Positions 21,201 through 27,451 of a stretch of 46,641 bases of DNA are shown here, piece by piece. Both the position numbers and the translations under genes were made by a program. Under the pieces are notes generated by a model. It was not told where the DNA came from, made no database searches, and saw only the letters and a program-made list of their open reading frames with translations. Origin of the DNA: Desulfohalobiaceae bacterium (GTDB lineage Bacteria; Desulfobacterota; Desulfovibrionia; Desulfovibrionales; Desulfothermaceae); NCBI GenBank assembly GCA_027013815.1, contig JALWFY010000111.1:1-46641 (forward strand). The letters are read 5' to 3'. Each line of letters begins with the position of its first letter. The first letter of the stretch is position 1.

Positions 21201-21284
21201 GCCGAGGTGGTGGAATTGGTAGACACGCTATCTTGAGGGGGTAGTGGGCATCCGCCCGTGAGGGTTCGAATCCCTCTCTCGGCA
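21201..21284 (+). tRNA. tRNA-Leu (anticodon GAG)
   Basis: An 84-base cloverleaf with acceptor GCCGAGG/CTCTCGGC, anticodon loop TTGAGGG (GAG), a long variable arm GTGGGCATCCGCCCG typical of class II leucine tRNA, and the T arm AGGGTTCGAATCCCT. CCA is not encoded. Confidence 0.95.
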
Positions 21285-21285
21285 T

Positions 21286-21393
21286 AAAGTGGAACAAAGT
21301 TCCACTTTACCTTGGCCATAAAGGCCAAGTTTTATAAGGAATAAAAATTTCTTATAATAGGCGTAAGCCACAAAAGCGGAGTAAAACTCCACT
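21286..21393 (+). repeat. Tandem hairpin modules after tRNA-Leu
   Basis: Consecutive hairpins, mostly with A-rich loops: AAAGTGGAAC-AAA-GTTCCACTTT (21286-21308), CTTGGCC-ATAAA-GGCCAAG (21311-21329), TTATAAGGAA-TAAAAA-TTTCTTATAA (21332-21357), GGC-GTAA-GCC (21360-21369) and AGCGGAGT-AAA-ACTCCACT (21375-21393, one mismatch). Together with the terminator that follows they leave almost no unpaired bases. Two modules recur at 27316-27357 on the other strand. Confidence 0.8.
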
Positions 21394-21420
21394 AAGGTCG
21401 AGTAAAAACTCGACCTTTTT
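21394..21420 (+). terminator. Terminator ending the secG/tRNA-Leu transcript
   Basis: AAGGTCGAGT-AAAA-ACTCGACCTT is a perfect ten-base-pair hairpin followed by a T run. It is the last of the tandem hairpins and abuts the stop of the convergent PTS gene at 21419. Confidence 0.85.
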
Positions 21421-26526: not shown

Positions 26527-27255
26527 TTATAATGCAAACCTCTCCCCTAAATATAGCCTTTTTGCTATTTCATTGTTTGCTATTTCCATTGGAGTCCCTT
26601 TTAGGATAATCTTTCCCTCATACACAAGATATACCCTATCACAAATCCTCATGGTATCCCTCACATTATGGTCAGAGATCAAAATGCCTATCCCTCTCTT
26701 TTTTAACCCCTCAATGATCTGTTGAATATCCATAATAGCTAGAGGGTCTATACCAGCAAAGGGCTCATCCAACAATATAAATTTTGGTTCTCTTATCAAG
26801 GCCCTGGCAATCTCTAACCTCCTCCTCTCTCCCCCTGACAAAAAACAGGCCTTTTGATCTGCAAGTTTATCTATACCCAATTCTCTTAATAAAAAATACA
26901 ATTTTTCTCTTTGTTCCTTAGGGCTTAGGTCAGTAAATTCCAATATAATTTTGAGGTTCTCTGATACTGTTAACTTTTTGAACACCGAACTCTCCTGAGG
27001 TAAATAACTAACCCCATTTCTGGCCCTTTTGTACAGGGGCCACGAGGTAATATCCTGTTCATTCAAAAATATCCTACCCTTAGTTGGATTAATTATACCA
27101 ACTAACATATAAAATGTGGTGGTCTTTCCTGCACCATTGGGCCCCAAAAGCCCTACCACCTCTCCATTCTCTAAATCCAGACTTATGTCCCTAACTACAG
27201 TCTTCTTTCCATATGTCTTAGTTATATTCTCGGCCCTTAATTTGTCTTTTTTCAT
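26527..27255 (-). CDS. lptB: LPS export ABC transporter ATPase LptB
   Basis: A 242-residue ATPase that drives lipopolysaccharide extraction from the inner membrane with LptFG (not in the window). Walker A GPNGAGKTT, Q-loop YLPQESSVFKKL, signature LSGGERRRLEIARAL, Walker B FILLDEPFAGIDP and the switch ISDHNVRDTMRICDR are typical of LptB. It is about 210 bases downstream of lptA, the gap holding inverted-repeat modules. Confidence 0.96.
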   Translation of the reverse strand: MKKDKLRAENITKTYGKKTVVRDISLDLENGEVVGLLGPNGAGKTTTFYMLVGIINPTKGRIFLNEQDITSWPLYKRARNGVSYLPQESSVFKKLTVSENLKIILEFTDLSPKEQREKLYFLLRELGIDKLADQKACFLSGGERRRLEIARALIREPKFILLDEPFAGIDPLAIMDIQQIIEGLKKRGIGILISDHNVRDTMRICDRVYLVYEGKIILKGTPMEIANNEIAKRLYLGERFAL

Positions 27256-27295
27256 TTATAATTTCGAGTCTTAGTTTATAGTTTCTAAATTCAAT

Positions 27296-27357
27296 GTGGC
27301 TCGAAGGGCCACGATAAAGCAAAACTTTGTTTCACTTTAAGGGCTTACGCCTATTAT
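27296..27357 (-). repeat. Hairpin modules between lptA and lptB
   Basis: Read on the minus strand: ATAATAGGCGTAAGCC (27342-27357, identical to 21354-21369), then AAAGTGAAAC-AAA-GTTTTGCTTT (27316-27338, a paired variant of the first module at 21286), then GTGGCCC-TTC-GAGCCAC (27296-27312). The order differs from the copy after tRNA-Leu. Confidence 0.7.
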
Positions 27358-27373
27358 CATGAAAAATTTTGGA

Positions 27374-27451
27374 TTTTAAATTTTGAATGTTGGATTAATA
27401 TTCATTTAACCATGACCAGTAACCTGTTTTATTTTAGTTCAAAATTTAAAA
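27374..27451. repeat. 14-base inverted repeat upstream of lptB
   Basis: TTTTAAATTTTGAA (27374-27387) is exactly inverted as TTCAAAATTTAAAA (27438-27451), 50 bases apart, next to the hairpin modules. Being A/T only apart from one base per arm, it carries limited information. Confidence 0.45.

Follow-up and report, generated by a model that had tools for sequence, protein, structure and literature searches.

The window, the whole 46,641-nucleotide stretch analyzed here, contains six hairpins in a row directly 3′ of tRNA-Leu(GAG), at 21285-21417 by folding. What is this chain of hairpins, and does it belong to the tRNA? The original prediction listed six consecutive hairpins with their loops, which the fold of this stretch confirms give or take a base, and offered three readings: a small RNA with structure, an element for processing or stability, and a family of mobile hairpins. 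We find that the feature is very probably a single copy of a dispersed palindromic element, P-H2-H3-H4-P, which is short (~110 bp) and non-autonomous and has entered the stretch separating tRNA-Leu from its terminator. Our preferred reading is a mobile, non-autonomous palindromic repeat akin to BOX, REPIN and MITE repeats, and not a conserved small RNA.

Hairpins downstream of tRNA-Leu

The minimum free energy of 21285-21417 is −59.3 kcal/mol, versus −22.6 ± 3.4 in dinucleotide shuffles (z = −10.7, 0/200 shuffles). The reverse strand folds equally strongly (z = −9.65), as a row of palindromes should. The sixth hairpin (21394-21417) with its T-rich tail is scored as an intrinsic terminator, which leaves a unit of five hairpins followed by a terminator. 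The array, which had been described as one feature, thus divides into a dispersed repeat of five hairpins (21285-21395) and the terminator of tRNA-Leu. The features of the locus are:

21201..21284, + strand: tRNA-Leu (anticodon GAG), from ARAGORN, Rfam and sequence; abuts the element; no encoded CCA
21285..21395, + strand: five-hairpin element copy, subfamily F1 (P-H2-H3-H4-P); covariance model match E 5.7e-18, 16-copy alignment; no element at the corresponding site of L010 and L011
21285..21309, + strand: P1, perfect 11-bp palindrome, loop AAA; from the fold and the list of perfect hairpins
21311..21329, + strand: H2, CTTGGCC/GGCCAAG hairpin, 7 bp, loop ATAAA; from the fold; nearly invariant among copies
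21332..21357, + strand: H3, AATAAGGAA-type hairpin, 11 bp; from the fold; AT-rich module E2 in the loop of long variants
21360..21369, + strand: H4, GGC-GTAA-GCC hairpin, 3 bp, loop GTAA; from the fold; counted in the 20-copy covariation set
21375..21393, + strand: P2, second P with a diverged stem; from the fold; covarying among copies
21394..21417, + strand: intrinsic terminator of the tRNA-Leu transcript, 10 bp, outside the element; from terminator scoring; terminator at the corresponding place in congeners

In the congeners G002 and G003, tRNA-Leu is followed directly by a terminator, without the element; these empty-site congeners are ~67% identical in TpiA, and the spacer at the tRNA itself is unalignable. 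By TpiA (67%), the nearest relatives that carry a name are MAGs labelled Desulfohalobiaceae and Desulfobacterales. CCA is not encoded in the tRNA-Leu(GAG) of this genome and of two congeners (L010, L011); most family and order relatives (L012-L037) encode it.

Could the array serve as a multi-hairpin terminator of tRNA-Leu? Its last hairpin is a good terminator and TTTT follows the H2 hairpin, but a T tract is lacking at P, H3 and H4, the congeners use a single hairpin, and the five-hairpin unit also occurs upstream of genes and inside genes. We regard serial termination as very improbable. For tRNA-Leu, the insertion most likely results in a structured trailer ahead of the terminator; the element is probably a passive insert there.

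Copies, insertion sites and nesting

A DNA search of the genome that carries the window (G000, a fragmented draft of 2.59 Mb in 219 contigs, 95% complete) places this stretch at 42 sites, nearly all covering just the part 3′ of the tRNA, and the copy analysis is based on stretches around matches in this genome. Covariance models give 107 matches (R1) and 113 (the broader R2), counts that include both strands of the near-palindromic unit; the matches correspond to ~50 distinct element loci at E ≤ 1e-3. The element is a modular unit of ~110 bp: a palindrome P of ~25 nt, three small hairpins (TTGGCC, AATAAGGAA, GCGTAAGC), then P again. In the unit aligned from 16 copies over 21285-21395, P is TAAAGTGGAAC-nnn-GTTCCACTTTA with a diverged stem in the last P, H2 is TTGGCC...GGCCAA, H3 is AATAAGGAAT...TCCTTAT, and H4 is GGC-GTAA-GCC. 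There are three subfamilies with one architecture: F1 (the window type), F2 (P = TAAAGCGAAAC...), and F3 (P = CCGAAGC...). Copies also form chains with P in common (for example C54:6242-6434), and some copies have extended stems.

Perfect stems, loop inversion and these extended stems are what local palindrome growth by template switching alone, without any mobility, might leave. Such growth is hardly credible as an explanation of the whole: unlinked copies are 75-88% identical and keep the same order of five distinct hairpins at ~50 loci, which is beyond local mutation, and the sequence common to unlinked copies already contradicts it. The flanks of copies are not complementary. Template switching accounts for the upkeep of P, not for dispersal.

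Most F1 and F3 loci are intergenic (37/44, with gene calls by a simple codon model), and both orientations occur. Of 35 upstream genes, as defined in element orientation, 13 have the direction of the element, and copies occupy divergent, convergent and co-directional gaps alike. F3 and F1 copies are also found inside IS transposase genes, where HTH_Tnp_1 and rve pieces flank the copy at C4:15916 and an HTH_Tnp_1 ORF runs into the copy at C205:4033. At G000:C29:2843-2956 (L101) an F3 copy splits a gene. Of the two pieces, the downstream one matches PF13310 (RhuM family, E 9e-16) and the upstream one gives no significant Pfam match; both are open in the same frame, and the in-frame stops come from the element. 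The reading frame of a DHHA1-domain protein continues into a partial copy at G000:C27:14920-15006 (L112), and its C-terminus thus gains a short stretch encoded by the element. We take the copies in the transposase, RhuM-family and DHHA1-protein genes as filled sites of DNA insertions.

Five of the element loci are no more than 100 bp from one of the 44 tRNA genes, and two of these five abut a tRNA 3′ end, a weak enrichment (5 loci versus ~1 expected given ~13% non-coding sequence in the window, uncorrected). Several copies (G000:C76:7636-7744, C89:3582-3689, C141:11267-11484) end 12-16 bases before the next start codon, beside an AGGAG-like ribosome-binding site, and are thus part of the 5′ untranslated region.

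The element is nested with two other repeats. E2, an AT-rich quasi-palindromic module of ~115 bp (TTTTGGATTTTGAATT...AATCCAAAATTCAAAATTT), is nested in the H3 loop of long F1 copies (L045, L048, L049, L056, L058, L060; ~27340-27440 of the window); conversely, some F1 copies sit within E2. The copy at this second place in the window is:

27205..27440, − strand: second, partial copy (E2 right half, H4, P, H2); covariance model matches 27224-27339 and 27316-27405; upstream of the ORF at 26527-27255

E3 is a second dispersed repeat, present at G000:C61:9430-9815 and some 30 other places (L129, L136-L165). It measures ~220-260 bp without a core and up to ~390 bp with one; its ends are conserved (TATAACAAACTAAAGTTCC... 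and ...GAAATAAAAAGCNTA) and its interior is variable, with AAAGGC and TTTTGGATT units. Read by eye, the flanks of E3 are TA-like and its two ends weakly similar, which is suggestive of a MITE. Nearly all F2 copies occupy one site of E3, and the core is absent from many E3 copies. Given the MITE-like traits of E3, we read F2 as having spread mainly as its passenger. The E3 copy on C197 has a single P left, with the left arm from one P and the right arm from the other, as expected from recombination between the two P repeats. The flanks of F1 copies are unrelated to one another; F1 would have moved on its own or in another vehicle.

Distribution and covariation of the stems

The R1 covariance model has no match in 149 other genomes of the order and R2 has none in 394 other genomes of the phylum (both with stricter filters); within the family, R2 also has no match (10 other genomes, including three congeners). 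The exact P palindrome gives 0 matches in GTDB genome contigs and IMG/VR, collections from which near-identical genomes are possibly left out. Rfam (Rfam 15, gathering score) finds tRNAs alone in the window, and nothing over the element in four copy-bearing loci. A literature search on repeats in this lineage found nothing. The original prediction was to be given up if relatives showed no conservation and folding showed no excess over shuffled sequence; conservation in relatives is indeed absent, folding excess is present, and what is conserved is conserved between copies inside one genome.

Covariation among copies is strong. Across 20 copies drawn from all of the subfamilies, 93.7% of the cells are paired and 13 pairs are changed on both sides; double-change cells number 63, versus 22.6 ± 3.7 after shuffling and 3-8 in slid controls. 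Variation in P is nearly all whole-pair replacement (UA/CG, GC/CG/AU) without G-U steps, and the P1 loop is AAA in some copies and TTT in others, on an unchanged stem of fixed orientation. Monttinen and Loytynoja (PMC8794818) attribute loop inversion and compensatory change of several bases to DNA template switching. From the whole-pair stem changes and the loop inversion we infer that DNA template switching, through correction of palindromes and inversion of loops, and not RNA selection, largely keeps the P stems perfect.

The covariation could also reflect a functional structured RNA family (an sRNA, or cis stabilizing or processing elements) that multiplied in this species, with RNA selection keeping the hairpins. 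The five copies near tRNA genes, two of which abut a tRNA 3′ end, fit such a family, as does the excess of G-T over A-C in H2 and H3 (19 to 5, counts that are few and uncorrected for kinship). The P stems show no G-U excess (14 G-T, 14 A-C) and change as whole pairs, the orientation of copies is random relative to flanking genes, copies sit inside transposase and other genes, and there is neither an Rfam match nor conservation beyond this genome; a structured RNA family is accordingly improbable. We also considered the G-U/A-C asymmetry as a sign of RNA selection in its own right and rejected it: there is none in P, and that in H2/H3 is too little to claim. The conserved small RNA that had been proposed, and equally the tRNA-processing or stability element, find no support, as the element is absent in relatives, has no Rfam match and lies in both orientations beside unrelated genes.

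An RNA-like run of hairpins with strong covariation can thus be a DNA repeat and not an RNA gene, which calls for caution when RNAs are discovered by covariance. With dozens of P palindromes that share an origin, the family is a natural test set for hairpin upkeep by template switching.

Probable mobility and comparison with known repeats

Dispersal, nesting, chains, collapse to a single P, and filled and empty sites are directly observed for the element. The third reading of the original prediction, a mobile hairpin family, gains support from the ~50 dispersed loci, the empty sites in two congeners, the copies within transposase genes, and the nesting. The element would move as DNA when a transposase or a replication-linked process acts in trans on its folded hairpins; recombination between P repeats may expand or contract it, and template switching would keep the P stems perfect.

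No target-site duplication is found (shared junction words 3.84 versus 3.93 in permuted pairs, p = 0.72); an 8-bp repeat at the junction of C4:15916 is a single case. A few copies hinted at preferential insertion into hairpin loops, which we rejected (flank complementarity 2.48 versus 2.44 permuted, p = 0.42). Mobilization by RAYT/Y1 finds no support, as the 95% complete G000 draft has no match to the Y1 (RAYT/IS200-type) transposase, PF01797; control genomes are positive. No autonomous partner or related IS was identified in this fragmented genome. A bolder reading is a novel class of mobile element built as a chain of hairpins. It would spread with no Y1 transposase, no target duplication and no known tag, travel as folded single-stranded DNA or via RNA, and have its palindromes rewritten by template switching; we consider this unlikely.

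The non-autonomous palindromic repeat has parallels in several known families. Like BOX of Streptococcus pneumoniae (boxA-boxB-boxC; PMC3049150), it is short, modular, highly folded and mostly intergenic, and copies insert into one another and sometimes into genes. BOX-like modularity is seen in its variable composition from few modules, its chains, the E2/E3 nesting, and the single-P remnant. It differs in having a five-hairpin unit with end palindromes and not boxA/B/C, and in lacking target duplication; its sequence is probably unrelated to BOX, which was compared by description.

With REPINs/BIMEs (PMC3116915, PMC3733652) it shares palindromes at both spacer ends, chains, a species-specific family, and intergenic spread. 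Unlike them, it has no GTAG/CGTC tag (neither is in the F1 consensus or the joint-alignment consensus), there is no Y1 transposase in the genome, and the spacer contains three further hairpins.

Like prokaryotic MITEs (PMC10969869), the element is <500 bp, AT-rich, folded, non-autonomous and intergenic; it is also dispersed and non-coding, and E3, the carrier of F2, looks MITE-like. In a terminal inverted repeat test the element ends are complementary by construction, each P being itself a palindrome. In contrast to MITEs, the P-A-P element lacks target-site duplication, and no IS related to it was identified. Rickettsia palindromic elements (described in PMC10969869) are palindromic repeats that also enter genes, comparable to the read-through at the DHHA1-protein C-terminus here; the element is unrelated to them and mostly intergenic, and its copy in the RhuM-family gene brings in-frame stops.

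We withhold the label of REP or proven MITE because the tests for a REP tag and RAYT were negative and there is no target duplication. We instead file the element among short interspersed palindromic repeats, as a new variant of modular build, and modular palindromic repeats are thereby extended to a Desulfohalobiaceae-like lineage.
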